From an uncultured Bacteroidales bacterium (lineage in GTDB: Bacteria; Bacteroidota; Bacteroidia; Bacteroidales; UBA932), in assembly GCA_944326315.1 (NCBI GenBank), contig CALVDP010000014.1:1-46772 (forward strand): a stretch of 46,772 nt of DNA. The letters are read 5' to 3'. Numbering within the stretch: position 1 is the stretch's first letter; the number at the start of each line of letters is the position of its first letter. Shown here piece after piece: positions 7,505 to 46,772 of the stretch. A model generated the notes under the pieces. That model saw nothing but the letters and a program-made list of their open reading frames with translations, made no database searches and was not told where the DNA came from. The position numbers were made by a program, and so were the translations under genes.

Positions 7505-7537
7505 TTTAACGTCTGTCCAACGGATAAATTAACGTCA
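7505..7537. repeat. short relic related to the intergenic repeat family
   Basis: Read on the minus strand, the sequence after the DUF3108 gene runs TGACGTTAATTTATCC then GTTGGACAGACGTTAA. It resembles the outer tail of the repeat copy at 23773-23805 (TAACGTGGATTCGTCGG, then ACAGACCTTAAATAACG). The first TGA is the stop codon of the DUF3108 gene at 7535-7537, the same stop-codon overlap seen at the full copies. Short length makes the relation tentative. Confidence 0.45.
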
Positions 7538-10754: not shown

Positions 10755-10951
10755 AACGTCAGTTCGACGAATTAATTTACTTAATGTCAGAGATTCCGTC
10801 GAACTGACGTCACGATTTCTTCGGAATCCCTTCTTATTCACGTGTCATTCCTCCTGAATTCTCCCCACGTACGGGAGAACCTGTGCCGGACTTCGTCCTT
10901 TATAGAGGTAATTCGATGAAATTCAATTCTTTCATTCCATCGAATCCACGT
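10755..10951. repeat. intergenic repeat element, copy A (197 bp)
   Basis: Closely similar over its whole length to copy C (23573-23771) and to partial copies B and D. Internal structure: a 14-bp stem (10756-10769 with 10797-10810) around a 27-nt loop; gatttcttcggaatc; ttctccc/gggagaa (10859-10865 with 10873-10879); ggacttcgtcc; and cctttatagagg. The ends form an imperfect inverted repeat (AACGTCAGTTCGACGAA against the complement of the tail ending CGAATCCACGT). On the minus strand it begins at the nif3 stop codon and ends about 14 bp before the zinc-ribbon start. Confidence 0.85.
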
Positions 10952-11733: not shown

Positions 11734-11744
11734 ATTATATATAA

Positions 11745-11805
11745 TTAACGTTACGACTTCTTCGGAAACCCTTCTTATTCACGTGCCATCCCTCTTAAAT
11801 GTGAC
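11745..11805. repeat. intergenic repeat fragment, copy B
   Basis: The stretch aacgttacgacttcttcgg followed by aaacccttcttattcacgtg and ccatccctcttaaat matches the middle of copies A and C (A: 10804-10860). It lacks the long stem arm and the distal half. It lies between merR and nif3, 23 bp downstream of the merR stop on the minus strand and in the same orientation as copy A. Its hairpin gacttcttcggaaac is imperfect, consistent with decay. Confidence 0.75.
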
Positions 11806-20025: not shown

Positions 20026-21762
20026 TTATCTATAGCTGATTATTTTGTTGTTGTCTGATTTGTCCACAAGCCTGTCGCCGGATTTCACTATGTCCGTTCC
20101 GGCAGGAACTTCGACAATGACTGCGGCATTGTCGGCCGGCAGCGTCACCTTCGCGGTACCGCTTGCATTCTCTGCAAGGTATTTCCTGGAAATGATGTCG
20201 AAGAGGTCCACCGGACCTTCACCTGATACCGTATATGTGACAGTTTTGTTTTCCTTGTACGGGTTATAGTAAAGATGCACCGGATACGGTCTGGCGGCAT
20301 AGAAGTCAGTGACATTGCAGTCTATGCCCAGAATGGCCTCCACGTCGGTAGTCCTCACCATTGCACCGAGTATGCCCACCGGAGACGTACTGTACACGCT
20401 GAACATTGACTCCGGCGGATTGGATGATGTCCATTTCGGTCCGTCACCCAAAGCCACAGGCGATACACCTTCAAGCTCCTTCTTGCCGTAGTCGTCGTGC
20501 TTGCGCAGCCCTTCGTAGGCTATATTGTTATCCGTCAGGTCCTTCATCTCCGGAAGCCACTGGTGTGCATCATCCATCTCGCCAGGATAGAAGAGACGGC
20601 ATGCATTGGCCAGATTCAACATCCACTTTCCTATCGCACGCGCATACTGAGGCTCGTACTTGACTACCGGCACCAAAGGCCATGCAAGCTTCACGGAGTT
20701 CATGAAGAATGCATATCCGCCTCCGTCAGTGATGCTTCCCTGAAGCCCATACACGTCATAGTCGCCCCATCTGTCCGCAATCACGCCCCAGCCGTAACGT
20801 CCGTCAGGATTATTGCATCCCTCGAATGTCCAGTCTATTATCTTCTTCACATCGTAGTCGGTGCCCAGCTCAGCATTCATACGCGCAGCCACCACCGCGC
20901 CCATAGGCAGAAGTATCTCATAGAAACGGCTTTCCTTCTGGGACAGAAGTGCTTCAAGGGCCGATTTGGCATGGTCGAGATATTTCTGGTCGCCGAACTT
21001 GTGCCATGCTGCATAAAGCACCCAGGCATGTCCGCCTGCGGCATCCTGCTGGAGAGGGATGTTGTTCACCATTCCCTGCATTTTCGAATAGTCGAAGTAG
21101 GAATAGTCATAGTTCCCGGCCAGCACCTCGTCAGCCTTGGCGAACTGGTCTGCCACAGTCCTCTGGATGGACTCGGCACCCTCCACGTCAGGATACAGGT
21201 CACAGAGGGCATAGTACAGGACATTCGGGAACACGTCATACCACCAGTCGCGACCATATCCTCCCCCGAGAAGTGCCACATCAGGACAGGTGTTGTTCAT
21301 CACTATGTTCCAGCCGTTGTCGCTGTTGAAATAGTTCTGGACCATCTTCACATAGTTGCGGCCGTTCTGGTCCGTCTTGTCCACCCCCACCAGTGTACCG
21401 CCGATAAGAGCGGCAAGTGAGTTCAGGCTCTCATGGAATTCGCCTCCGTTGTGAGAAGGACCCTGTCTGGAATCATTGACGGCGGTATAGAGGCCGAACG
21501 TCTCCTGGTCAATGTTCCTTCTGCTGTTGTCATACCAGATCATAGGGTTGCCTTTCACCCTTGTATTCTCGTTGAAGACATACGCGTCAAAATCCAGCGC
21601 CTTCTGCCTCCAGTCGAGCATCTTGTATGGGGACGGGATATTCGGCATAAGCTCTATCCTTGCTATACCGGTCTGCTCTACCGGCTCGCCGTATCCGCCT
21701 TCCGTGCAGCCTGCGGCTAATACGCACAGGGCTGCTGACATTATCACTATCGGTTTTTTCAT
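20026..21762 (-). CDS. PUL lipoprotein of unknown function, predicted helical-barrel enzyme
   Basis: A 578-residue lipoprotein (VLAAGC, Cys19). I do not recognise a named family. Repeated helices with aromatic/acidic loops (DAAGGHAWVLYAAWHKFGDQ, SRFYEILLPMGAVVAARMN, LQGSITDGGGYAFFMNSVK) suggest an (alpha/alpha)6 six-hairpin-glycosidase-like barrel. The last 110 or so residues (YPVHLYYNPYKENKTVTYTV onward) look like a beta-sandwich cap. It is a close paralogue of the adjacent 582-residue protein, and 1 bp separates it from susC. A surface or periplasmic glycan-cleaving role is inferred from context only. Confidence 0.6.
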   Translation of the reverse strand: MKKPIVIMSAALCVLAAGCTEGGYGEPVEQTGIARIELMPNIPSPYKMLDWRQKALDFDAYVFNENTRVKGNPMIWYDNSRRNIDQETFGLYTAVNDSRQGPSHNGGEFHESLNSLAALIGGTLVGVDKTDQNGRNYVKMVQNYFNSDNGWNIVMNNTCPDVALLGGGYGRDWWYDVFPNVLYYALCDLYPDVEGAESIQRTVADQFAKADEVLAGNYDYSYFDYSKMQGMVNNIPLQQDAAGGHAWVLYAAWHKFGDQKYLDHAKSALEALLSQKESRFYEILLPMGAVVAARMNAELGTDYDVKKIIDWTFEGCNNPDGRYGWGVIADRWGDYDVYGLQGSITDGGGYAFFMNSVKLAWPLVPVVKYEPQYARAIGKWMLNLANACRLFYPGEMDDAHQWLPEMKDLTDNNIAYEGLRKHDDYGKKELEGVSPVALGDGPKWTSSNPPESMFSVYSTSPVGILGAMVRTTDVEAILGIDCNVTDFYAARPYPVHLYYNPYKENKTVTYTVSGEGPVDLFDIISRKYLAENASGTAKVTLPADNAAVIVEVPAGTDIVKSGDRLVDKSDNNKIISYR

Positions 21763-21807
21763 ATTTCTAATATTAATAAGGTATGTTTATTTTCTATTCC
21801 GCGGATG

Positions 21808-23556
21808 TCATTTGTAGCATATGACACTTCCGTCCCCGGTATTCACTATCCGGCCGCCGTCCTGTCCGAGCACTGTACCGGCAGGGATCTCCACGATGAC
21901 GGTGCTGTGACCTCCGGGAAGAGAGATTGTCTCGGACCCCGCGACATCCCTGGCCACATATGTCCTGGATACTATGTCGAAGAGGTCTGCCGCCCCGTCA
22001 GAAACCGTGTATGTGACCTCCTTGTCTTCATCGTATGGATTGTAGTACATGTAGACAGGATATGGCCGTTCGGCATAGAAGTCGGTCGCATTGCAGTCTA
22101 TCCTGATGATGCCTTCGACCTCTGTCTTCTCCACAAGCGCCCCGAGGATACCCACAGGAGCCGTGCTGTAAAGACTGAACATAGTCTCTTCGCCGTTGTT
22201 TTCCGTCCATTGCGGACCGTCGCCGAGAGCCACCGGAGACACCCCCTCAAGCTCTGCCTTGCCGTATTTGTCCTCCCTGCGCAGGCCTTCATAGGCGATA
22301 TTCCCGGCTGTGACATCCTTCATCTCCGGAAGCCACTGGTGCGCGTCATCTATTTCCGTAGGATAGAAAAGCCGGCAGGCATTGGCGGCATTCAGCATCC
22401 ATTTTCCTATTGCGTCAGCAAACTTCGGTTCATATTTGACAATAGGGACCATAGGCCACATCAGTTTCACCGAGTTCATGAAGAATGCATATCCTCCGCC
22501 GTCCAGCGTGCTTCCCTGCAGTCCATAGACGTCATAGGCGCCCCACTTATCAGAAATCACGCCCCAGCCAAGTCTTCCGGTACTGGACTTGCACCAGTTG
22601 AACGTCCAGTCTATGATACGCTGCACATCATAGTGTGCGTCAAGCTCAGCATTCATCCTGGCGGCCACCAGCGCCCCCATCGGCATAAGTATCTCATAGA
22701 AACGGCTCTGCCTCTGGGCAAGCAGCGTCTCGATGGCGGACCTGGCATGTTCGAGATAGTTTTCGTCCCCGAATTTCTGCCATGCGGCATAAAGCACCCA
22801 CGCATGTCCGCCCGCAGCATCCTGCTGGTAAGGTATGTCAGTCTGCACGCCCTGCATTTTCGAATAGTCGAAATACGAGTAGTCGTAGTTCCCGGCAAGA
22901 ACCTCATCCGCACGTGCGAACTGGTCGGCGATGCTCCTCTGTATGGCTTCCGCACCGTCCACATCCGGATACAGGTCGCAAAGCGCATAGTAGAGGACAT
23001 TAGGGAAAACTATGTACCACCAGTCCCCGCCGCCTGCACTCGTATTGTTCATCACTATGTTCCAGCCGTTGTCGCTGTTGAAATAGTTCTGGACCATCTT
23101 CACGTAATTGTGACCGTTCTGTGTGGTCTTGTCCACACCGAGCAGGCTCGCGCCTATGAGGGCAGGCAGCGTGGTCACCGCCTCGTGGCCGTCCTCATTG
23201 ACACCCGGACCCTGGCGGGAATCATTCAGGGCCGTATAAATGCCGAATGTCTCCTGATGTATGTTGTGTGTGCAGTCATAGAACCAGATCAGCGGCTTGC
23301 CGAAGACCTCGGTATTCTCATCGAACACATAGGCATCGAAATCCAGGGCCTTCTGCTTCCAGTCGAGCATCCTGTACGGCGACGGCATGTCCGGCATACC
23401 GGAGATCCGGCTGATCTCCACCTGCTCCACCCCGTCACCGAGGTCAGTCTGTCCGTTATCCTGTTTGCCGGAGACATTTTCCGGGTCGCAGGCCGCCATG
23501 GATACCGATACCAAGGCTGCGGACAATATGGCTGGAATATTTCTGACTGTCATCAT
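21808..23556 (-). CDS. PUL lipoprotein of unknown function, tandem paralogue
   Basis: A 582-residue lipoprotein (SVSMAAC, Cys23), collinear with the 578-residue neighbour: PSPYRMLDWKQKALDFDAYVF, ETFGIYTALNDSRQGPG, VKMVQNYFNSDNGWNIVMNN, NYDYSYFDYSKMQG, GLRREDKYGKAELEGVSPVA. Invariant acidic and aromatic positions in both copies (the FDYSK, DAAGGHAW, WGxIxDxWGxYDVYGLQGS and DGGGYAFF blocks) are candidate catalytic or sugar-binding sites. It lies 45 bp upstream of its paralogue. Copy C of the intergenic repeat sits just upstream, between it and the MFS gene. Function unknown; a duplicated glycan-active enzyme is the leading guess. Confidence 0.6.
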   Translation of the reverse strand: MMTVRNIPAILSAALVSVSMAACDPENVSGKQDNGQTDLGDGVEQVEISRISGMPDMPSPYRMLDWKQKALDFDAYVFDENTEVFGKPLIWFYDCTHNIHQETFGIYTALNDSRQGPGVNEDGHEAVTTLPALIGASLLGVDKTTQNGHNYVKMVQNYFNSDNGWNIVMNNTSAGGGDWWYIVFPNVLYYALCDLYPDVDGAEAIQRSIADQFARADEVLAGNYDYSYFDYSKMQGVQTDIPYQQDAAGGHAWVLYAAWQKFGDENYLEHARSAIETLLAQRQSRFYEILMPMGALVAARMNAELDAHYDVQRIIDWTFNWCKSSTGRLGWGVISDKWGAYDVYGLQGSTLDGGGYAFFMNSVKLMWPMVPIVKYEPKFADAIGKWMLNAANACRLFYPTEIDDAHQWLPEMKDVTAGNIAYEGLRREDKYGKAELEGVSPVALGDGPQWTENNGEETMFSLYSTAPVGILGALVEKTEVEGIIRIDCNATDFYAERPYPVYMYYNPYDEDKEVTYTVSDGAADLFDIVSRTYVARDVAGSETISLPGGHSTVIVEIPAGTVLGQDGGRIVNTGDGSVICYK

Positions 23557-23572
23557 CTGTAGTACTCTATTT

Positions 23573-23771
23573 AACGTCAGTTCGACGAATTATTCTGTTC
23601 AATATCAGAGATTCCGTCGAACTGACGTTACGATTTCTTCGAAATCCCTTTCCTTTTTCGTGTCACCCCTCTTAAATTCTCCCCTGCGTAGGGGAGAACT
23701 TACGCCGGACTTCGTCCTCTATAGAGGTAATTCTCTGAAATTCATTTCATTCATTTCATCGAATTCACGTT
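23573..23771. repeat. intergenic repeat element, copy C (199 bp), inside the PUL operon
   Basis: Best-preserved copy. Perfect 15-bp stem (23573-23587 with 23615-23629) with a 27-nt loop; gatttc-ttc-gaaatc hairpin; 9-bp stem ttctcccct/aggggagaa (23677-23685 with 23690-23698); ggac-ttc-gtcc; palindrome cctctatagagg. Ends: AACGTCAGTTCGACG and GAATTCACGTT, an imperfect inverted pair. A second partial border (ctgtccgacgaatccacgtt, 23781-23800) reaches the MFS stop codon. It occupies nearly all of the gap between MFS and the 582-residue gene. Confidence 0.88.
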
Positions 23772-23798
23772 ATTTAAGGTCTGTCCGACGAATCCACG

Positions 23799-25052
23799 TT
23801 ATTTAGCGTCAGAGGAATTGCAATCCTTGATTATATTCTTTGCAAGAGGTATGGAGAGCATCTGCAGTCCTCCGACTATCGGCAGGGCGAACTTCAGCGC
23901 GAACACCTCGGATATGCCGAAAGCAAGCGCAAGGAAGAGCAGCAGGCCGAATGCACGGCCTATGAAAAGCCCTATCTCATGGCTCAGGATATATGTGTAC
24001 TCGTTCCTGTTCTCTGCCTTCGACACTACGTCTATCGTCCTCATCATGATCGGAAAATAAGCCAGGTCATGCAGAGGCTGGAACATCACCTTGCACAGGA
24101 TGAACACTATCGCACCCATTGCCGAGAACCAGAAGCAGTTGACCAATGTGCCGAAGAAAAATATGCTGATACCTATCGAGAACACGATGATCCTGTGTTT
24201 CGGCTTGGTGACACGGCCCAGGATATAGACCAGGATGGCAGTCAGACCGCCGCTGATGCTCTGTATCACGCCGAGAGTGCCCTCCTCGCCGATAAGCTTC
24301 ATCACCAGGATGGCCGGAGCCGTCACCAGGAAGCCCTGCACCATGCCTTTCAGGGAAGACAGGCACAGCATCTTGTTCCACAGCTTCGAGAACTTCAGGT
24401 AGAAGAACTTGGAGTCCCTGGGATTCGTATAGTGTCCGCTGAGGATATTCGCGCAGGCTATCAGCGAAATCACAGTGGCAACCACAGTCACAAGCCTGTA
24501 CGTCATGTTGACATCGAAGCTGATACCGAATACCTCCTTGCCGGAAAGATTCGCGATTACGGCACCGACGATGAGAGGTACCGCTATGTTTCCTATGGTG
24601 AAGCCCAGGCTTTCGAGGCCGAAGAAGTAATTTCTGTTGTTGTCGTCAGTAGAGTTCAGGGTAATCAAGTAGCGGTTGGTCCAGAAAAAACCTGAGGCAG
24701 CACCCATGACGAAGCCTATGAGAAGCAGCTCCGTGATGCCGAGTGCGTCCAGCATCATCATCCCCACCATGGAGACCGAGGAGAAAAGGATACCCGCGCA
24801 ATAAAGCCAGGCCACATTGAATTTCCTCAGCAGCCATCCGTTGATGATGGAAGTGAACACGATACCTGCATACATCGCGAGCTGGAACATGGCCACATAA
24901 GAAGGCTTGCCGCAGCTGCGCATGATATATGCGCCCACGAATATCTCCACGATAGGCAGCACCCATGCATAGAGCATATTCGTGATCAGCAGTTTCCTCA
25001 TGTCGCGGGGATACTGCATGAAGACCTGGAATTCGTTGAGGAACTTCTTCAT
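23799..25052 (-). CDS. MFS-type sugar transporter
   Basis: A 417-residue integral membrane protein with about 12 hydrophobic segments, starting MKKFLNEFQVFMQYPRDMRKL. The ATG at 25052 is preferred over the in-frame GTG at 25055 because it forms a TGATG overlap with the GH130 stop, implying translational coupling. Major-facilitator hallmarks: long hydrophobic helices, GFVMGAASGFFWTNRYLITL and a central basic loop. PULs with GH130 enzymes typically carry such an inner-membrane importer for the oligosaccharide that the enzyme processes. The TAA stop is provided at the border of the repeat tail. Confidence 0.85.
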   Translation of the reverse strand: MKKFLNEFQVFMQYPRDMRKLLITNMLYAWVLPIVEIFVGAYIMRSCGKPSYVAMFQLAMYAGIVFTSIINGWLLRKFNVAWLYCAGILFSSVSMVGMMMLDALGITELLLIGFVMGAASGFFWTNRYLITLNSTDDNNRNYFFGLESLGFTIGNIAVPLIVGAVIANLSGKEVFGISFDVNMTYRLVTVVATVISLIACANILSGHYTNPRDSKFFYLKFSKLWNKMLCLSSLKGMVQGFLVTAPAILVMKLIGEEGTLGVIQSISGGLTAILVYILGRVTKPKHRIIVFSIGISIFFFGTLVNCFWFSAMGAIVFILCKVMFQPLHDLAYFPIMMRTIDVVSKAENRNEYTYILSHEIGLFIGRAFGLLLFLALAFGISEVFALKFALPIVGGLQMLSIPLAKNIIKDCNSSDAK

Positions 25053-46696: not shown

Positions 46697-46772
46697 TAAC
46701 GTGAATTCGATGAAATGAATGGAATGAATTTCATAGAATTACCTCTATAGAGGACGAAGTCCGGCGTAAGGA
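46697..46772. repeat. intergenic repeat element, copy D (opposite orientation, cut by window end)
   Basis: From aacgtgaattcgatgaaatg at 46697 to the window end, the sequence is the reverse complement of the distal part of copy C (23699-23771), including cctctatagagg and ggacgaagtcc. It lies 110 bp after the DUF5009 stop. Its plus-strand orientation mirrors the host gene, as with copies A-C relative to their minus-strand genes. Confidence 0.88.

Follow-up and report, generated by a model that had tools for sequence, protein, structure and literature searches.

A hairpin-built 199-bp repeat family of uncultured Bacteroidales with the ends of IS982 insertion sequences

Porphyromonas gingivalis belongs, like the uncultured bacterium studied here, to the Bacteroidales. 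The terminal inverted repeats (TIRs) printed for its elements ISPg3 (ACGTCAGTTCGA), MITE239 (ACGTGAGTTCGA...) and MITE700 (ACGTCATTCGA) equal or nearly equal the ends of the element described below, in a comparison of the printed TIRs (PMC4596501). ISPg3 is filed under IS5 in that paper, whereas IS195, formerly named ISPg3 (PMC5771137), is listed with a length of 1070 bp in the IS982 family (PMC7335449). For this family, the accessible part of the latter source gives direct repeats (DRs) of 2-10 bp where there are any, AC ends and the inverted-repeat consensus AC(N)6T(N)5TT.

In Cardinium, MITECca01 is a ~240-bp non-autonomous IS982-family derivative present in 169 copies, mostly intergenic (PMC9769881). 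The element described here resembles it in being short, high-copy, mostly intergenic and of the IS982 type. As far as the accessible text of that paper goes, however, MITECca01 occurs beside intact parental IS copies, whereas the source assembly here lacks the parent; no other sequenced Cardinium was found to have it, whereas the present family spans several species; and no hairpin chain is mentioned for it, whereas the element here has one. BrickBuilt of P. gingivalis is, according to the accessible text, an intergenic MITE with a repeat-built interior of variable length, as here, but it consists of tandem 23-nt repeats and its TIR is most like those of ISPg1 and ISPg9 (PMC4596501). ERIC/IRU and Correia/NEMIS elements are described, in the parts of the sources available, as short, structured and mobile; their RNA acts on the flanking mRNA, in the case of ERIC in an orientation-dependent manner (PMC2229807, PMC3049150). 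They have other hosts and other ends, and mRNA evidence is cited for them. Within a literature coverage outside which most subscription journals fall, the Cardinium paper (PMC9769881) was the sole find for an IS982 MITE in Bacteroidetes, no published description of a Cryptobacteroides MITE family was found, and IS982 is absent from the accessible text of a MITE review (PMC10969869).

Copies in the window and in the source genome

The window, i.e. the whole stretch of 46,772 nucleotides that was analysed, is contig C14 of the source MAG (GCA_944326315.1), which comprises 2.42 Mb in 103 contigs. A first-pass annotation of the window had described three copies of a multi-hairpin element and two fragments. 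Two of these copies were found as described: an intact 199-bp MITE on the plus strand at 23573-23771, which serves as the reference copy, and an older, diverged plus-strand copy at 10755-10951, with 170 of 201 aligned columns identical between the two. The third, which had been placed at 46697-end, is indeed present from 46698 to 46772 on the minus strand. It is, however, no full copy of the same size: what remains before the contig stops is the right end of a long-class copy, which departs from the 199-bp type after 'ggcgtaagga' and then resembles the 319/471-bp class. Breaks in other contigs fall close to where this copy is truncated. The fragment reported at ~11745-11805 was recovered as an internal element fragment at 11743-11800 (plus strand, 84% over 58 nt, repeat D7). 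As to the one reported at 7505-7537, positions 7508-7535 (plus strand) resemble, as read from the sequence, a possible decayed TIR pair, but a weak one that is absent from the repeat listing. A decayed end fragment (AAGGTCTGTCCGACGAATCCACGTT), likewise read from the sequence, directly follows the reference copy at 23776-23800 on the plus strand. The window also contains, at 20026-23556, tandem ORFs of ~580 aa on the minus strand whose repeats share 71-80% DNA identity, the second of the pair having no Pfam match at 1e-5, and, at 234-1379, two tandem small ORFs that are apparently paralogous (repeats D9 and D10).

The two ends of the reference copy are built differently. Its left end (23573-23629, plus strand) is a 57-bp palindrome with a 17-bp stem that carries an inverted copy of the TIR in each arm and in which 13 of the 17 pairs never vary among 37 sequences, while its right end (23729-23771, minus strand) consists of a single terminal TIR, AACGTGAATTCGATGAA, together with an imperfect inverted partner (helix 4, with a GC/AU two-sided change). 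Small plus-strand hairpins lie in between: GATTTC-TTC-GAAATC at 23632-23646, with all cells paired in the 37 sequences; a C/G-rich hairpin, TTCTCCCC...GGGGAGAA, at 23677-23698, with a UA/CG two-sided change; and GGAC-TTC-GTCC at 23707-23717 and a CCTCTATAGAGG palindrome at 23716-23727. In 209-bp relatives a longer hairpin, GGATTCGT...ACGAATCC, takes the place of GGAC-TTC-GTCC, and a shared site shows that a ~105-nt cassette occupies the position of the C/G-rich hairpin in a long-class relative. The target-site duplication (TSD) of the reference copy is ATTT; by the IS982 convention, in which the ends begin with AC, the copy spans 23574-23770 and the TSD becomes TATTTA.

Among the 40 of 140 candidates that were scored, the reference copy recurs at 100% identity over 199 nt in at least nine further places, and these at least ten identical copies show a recent amplification in the source lineage. 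The core GCCGGACTTCGTCCTCTATAGAGG has 73 matches at up to 3 mismatches in the source MAG and none in the reversed control; the TIR pattern has 265 matches at up to 1 mismatch (252 in the family-wide TIR count), against none in its control. The element is short, too small for a transposase and present in high copy number, as is typical of a MITE. Several contigs of the source assembly end inside it, so that it probably contributes to assembly breaks. Other length classes exist beside that of 199 bp, namely 319- and 471-bp versions of it that carry extra hairpin cargo, and one of 233 bp whose interior differs. The latter forms a second family in the source genome (L101:816-1048, L108:642-874, L109:715-947 and L110:508-740), with TIRs similar to those of the 199-bp class, a different hairpin interior and relatives in L153 (G062) and L154 (G147). 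When DNA from the whole order was searched, scoring ~2 candidates in each genome, it matched 2 of 393 genomes, both of this genus.

The 199-bp sequence class is patchy in its genus, since this query had no match at 1e-5 in the 40 other same-genus genomes sampled. At least 70 listed stretches share the terminal hairpin and all come from Bacteroidales MAGs, one named Candidatus Cryptobacteroides intestinipullorum and the rest 'uncultured Bacteroidales bacterium'; it is from the name of that one MAG that we infer Cryptobacteroides as the host genus. The TIR pattern has some match in 63 of 299 family genomes, and reaches multiple copies almost exclusively in the same genus. G166, from another genus of the family, has 13 TIR matches and may be an additional host, either for the IS or for the MITE.

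Insertion sites and partner insertion sequences

We assembled 101 distinct insertions (42 from the source genome, 59 from relatives) in which TIR patterns on both sides lie 180-700 bp apart. Of these, 86 are flanked by an exact TSD of 4 bp or longer, one by a TSD of 3 bp and 14 by none; when left and right flanks are paired wrongly at random, 7.5% match. The duplications measure 4 bp (32 insertions), 5 bp (47), 6 bp (6) or 7 bp (1). In 80 of the 86 cases, those with both a flanking T and a flanking A, the AC-end notation adds these two bases. A T-A...T-A target is seen in 70 of the 87 insertions with a TSD of at least 3 bp. At least two rows without a TSD, those of 523 and 271 bp, each combine copies that lie next to one another. 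The 15 insertions whose exact TSD is shorter than 4 bp or lacking nevertheless count against an IS982 MITE, as does the copy at 10755, outside this set, which has no visible TSD and whose right end overlaps the stop codon of a NIF3-family gene.

REP and REPIN units mobilized by TnpA_REP, a Y1 transposase, are not known to produce a TSD. The first-pass annotation had offered, beside a MITE, a REP-type unit that is moved in single-stranded form by such a Y1/HUH enzyme, and the strong hairpins and intergenic position are in line with this. The duplications of 4-7 bp that flank 86 of the 101 insertions are not, nor is the fact that the ends coincide with those of an IS982 element whose transposase is of the DDE type, and we regard this reading as very improbable. 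The argument that hairpin loops closing with C-GAA-G suit single-strand transposition thereby becomes unnecessary.

Empty sites in sister species, which the first-pass annotation had proposed to look for, do exist. The element at L209:6062-6271 in BRZ_MQ__bin2 (CALVDR), inserted 5 nt before an ATG, is flanked by ...ggatatatt and atattatggcagac..., and the same place in the sister species G331 (L288) reads ...gaatatattatggcagac..., an exact empty site. A second site is filled in L224 and empty in G331 (L267/L268), with slightly diverged flanks, and other sites, e.g. L204/L227 and L168/L234, are occupied in both species; several CALVDR copies at contig ends were judged from one side only. For copies of the source genome itself, five comparisons at four loci gave no base-exact empty site, the intergenic stretches being too diverged, and at L014 the relative G331 has a TIR-like remnant rather than a cleanly empty place. 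The flanks differ at the 30 source-genome copies printed, nearly all of which have TSDs of their own. That the copies are parts of a segmental duplication is refuted by these unrelated flanks and by the empty sites, and the probability left to a duplication is practically nil; nor are the copies few, with 73 core matches. With many copies, TIRs, TSDs, empty sites and an IS with the same ends, the MITE reading of the first-pass annotation holds.

Reduced forms of the element also occur. L158:292-316 (G229 C1:106718-106742) is a 25-bp palindrome, AACGTGAATTCGTCGAACTGACGTT, that consists of just two fused TIRs and has AGATT on both sides: a collapsed or minimal version whose TSD is retained. L300:14310-14422 (G331) is a truncated copy with the hairpin end, of which the orthologous CALVDR locus L192 keeps only a stub; this suggests a deletion in CALVDR.

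In three genomes of the same genus (G189, G319 and G081), TIR pairs 1056-1059 bp apart enclose a transposase ORF of ~310 aa, which is interrupted in G081. The ORF matches NF033520 'IS982 family transposase' at E ~1e-74 and ~250 bits, compared with a cut-off of 130 (L147, L148), and also PF13612; the first piece of the interrupted ORF (L149, G081) still scores 165 bits to NF033520. By these profile matches the partner ORF is an IS982-family DDE transposase. The ends of the G081 IS, AACGTCAGTTCGACGAATTA and AACGTGAATTCGATGAAA, are identical to the left 20 and right 18 bases of the MITE, so TIRs are shared with an autonomous IS that resides in other genomes of the genus. IS982 copies with similar ends are also present in G205 and G241. 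Matching flanks were seen in one of the five IS copies bounded on both sides (AATTT at L147; not L148, L149, L239 or L240). Set beside the accessible description of IS982 in PMC7335449, the length of the IS agrees with ~1 kb and its ends, (A)ACGT, with a start in AC, and the MITE has DRs of 4-7 bp; of the consensus AC(N)6T(N)5TT, the TIR has AC and T, but its last two bases are AA and not TT. By eye, the interior of the MITE shows no obvious similarity to the IS beyond the TIR, which gives no support for its origin from that IS by simple deletion.

The first-pass annotation had noted that no transposase is nearby, and this was an understatement. Searches with IS982 transposase protein and NF033520 found nothing in the source assembly, which is 95.6% complete, nor in G158, G331 and G062, and G147 and G217 gave weak hits only, below the NF033520 cut-off; the searches do work, as they were positive in G205 and G319 (fragments at contig ends). 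A transposase with matching ends, another search it had proposed, thus turned up in same-genus genomes and not in the source. MITE-rich assemblies exist both without an assembled helper (G158, 265 TIR matches; source, 252; G331, 138) and with an IS982 transposase (G205, 153; G241, 79). Multi-copy insertion sequences are often lost from MAGs, and missing DNA is a plain alternative explanation for the absent helper. Insertions at the C7/C12 contig ends and a 'ggggctgaattctaagttaagacc' repeat were discarded as candidates for the autonomous partner, because their ends differ. One MITE copy apparently carries a further insertion in its loop, bounded by ends like CTAGTGTCCCGTT / CTACTGTCCCGTT and seen at two contig ends, in L111 (contig C7) and L135 (contig C12). 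In G241, L155 and L164 have the same left TIR, with a 477-bp element in L155 and an interior of a 'GTCATCCCGAGCGGAGCCGAGGGATCT' repeat and GC-rich hairpin chains.

Taken together, the element is very probably a mobile, non-autonomous IS982-type MITE, and the 199-bp family is a new family of a kind that was already known. An IS982 DDE transposase would act in trans on the MITE ends, inserting the element at AT-rich sites, most often TA-N2-3-TA, and duplicating 4-7 bp, or two more when the ends are set at AC. Since no such transposase was found in the assembly, the helper may have come and gone or may have been lost from the MAG. The recent copies of the source genome are in this respect a counterpoint to the IS982 identity, as their mover has no assembled candidate.

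Hairpin folding and orientation between genes

The multi-hairpin fold proposed for the element stands up well against shuffled sequences: the RNA fold z-scores are -7.2 for the plus strand, -6.7 for the minus strand and, in a relative, -7.5, and in none of the three cases did any of 200 shuffles reach the same stability. Rfam 15 covariance models gave no match above the gathering score in the window. Covariation was scored over the 42 pairs of the named structure in 37 sequences, picked from 55 distinct elements of ~200 bp. Of the cells, 95.6% are paired, and 27 cells changed on both sides, compared with 10.8 in shuffles and 0 in six slid controls. Two-sided change is found in 2 of the 42 pairs against 2.5 in shuffles, and there are 3 pair types against 5.6. 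Most pairs never vary, so that covariation neither proves nor excludes an RNA role. In L081 and L182, the sequence of one right-end arm has been replaced by the complement of its partner arm. This pattern points to template switching within quasi-palindromes, a process that can mimic compensatory change. At the site shared by L168 and L234, flanks and TSD agree and the outer parts are nearly identical, but the middle is a ~20-nt hairpin in one and a ~105-nt cassette in the other. Judging from this one site, the interior would be a modular chain of hairpins whose cassettes are probably exchanged between copies by recombination.

Gene context was derived from codon-scored ORFs, and a cruder ORF picker gave the same direction of bias. 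Of 88 insertions that were classed (out of 101), 52 lie between co-directional, 20 between convergent and 16 between divergent genes. The two orientations are unequally represented among the co-directional ones (41:11, p=3.6e-5; source 17:5, relatives 24:6), and in the majority orientation the element is read on its minus strand and turns its 57-bp hairpin towards the downstream gene start. Stricter filters gave 35:6 (71 insertions), and a ratio of 26:4 was obtained with both genes within 150 nt (44 insertions; 11:3 and p=0.057 for the source genome alone). The hairpin end lies a median of ~50 nt from the downstream start in 35 co-directional cases. Both copies in the window have the common orientation between minus-strand genes: the neighbours of the 10755 copy are a CT398-like coiled-coil/zinc-ribbon gene and the NIF3-family gene, and those of the 23573 copy a gene without Pfam match and an MFS gene. 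The region 23540-23800 contains no site resembling a promoter or an intrinsic terminator. TTTG, which is part of the Bacteroidota promoter motif, is absent from both strands of the 199-bp element.

This bias could reflect selection against the other orientation, usefulness of the common one or an insertion preference. The last of these would make it a property of insertion, coupled to transcription or replication and unrelated to function or selection. It finds some backing in the near-identical, presumably young copies of the source genome, in which the ratio is already 11:3 (5:0 among the ten identical ones), although these numbers are small; against it, IS982 is not known to show orientation coupling, and we hold such an insertion bias to be possible but doubtful. 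A second account would have the copies maintained as a host-useful structured RNA, in an oriented intercistronic or leader position and ERIC-like, with mobility as nothing but their origin. The 41:11 bias between co-directional genes, the ~50-nt spacing to the downstream start, the fold z-score of about -7 and the two pairs with two-sided change, together with the 27 cells against 10.8, all fit this account. It is nevertheless weakened by the 36 of 88 insertions that lie outside co-directional gene pairs, by the parasitic appearance of recent insertions with intact TSDs, by a number of two-sided pairs (2) no higher than in shuffles (2.5), and by template switching with copied arms in L081 and L182 as another source of palindrome changes, and we consider it rather unlikely. 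For the IS982-type MITE itself, the 57-bp hairpin in front of the downstream gene start may affect the mRNA.

Spread between species

Two copies of the 199-bp type, L213 (CALVDR) and L185 (BRZ_PT__bin109), share 197 of 199 positions with the window copy, to which another two copies in CALVDR show identities of 96% and 94.5%. Orthologous flanks of the source genome and CALVDR, by contrast, are only 66-78% identical (eight alignments of at least 300 nt; L170, L199 and L205). L213 is on the same 149-kb contig as L170, L195 and L231, which are of the local 209-bp type, and this argues against a misbinned contig. Since the identity of the element is far above that of the flanks, horizontal transfer between species is likely, and the family would then move between the species of its genus; the alternative is strong selection on the element. 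Carriage by a plasmid or phage had no match in plasmid or phage records, and the exact hairpin pattern was absent from the viral contigs searched. A still broader proposal is that of a genus-wide IS982 MITE, with several hosts lacking a resident transposase, that is carried between Cryptobacteroides species by transient helpers and has now become an oriented, hairpin-built module for mRNA processing or insulation between operon genes, with interchangeable interior cassettes. As a whole, we judge this scenario to be unlikely.

A high-copy repeat family, from a genus seen here only through MAGs, is now tied to a specific transposase family. Moreover, the sister species offer a natural series of sites that are empty, filled or changed in their cassette, and this series could be used to ask whether oriented hairpin elements between co-directional genes owe their orientation to tolerance, to selection or to the insertion itself.
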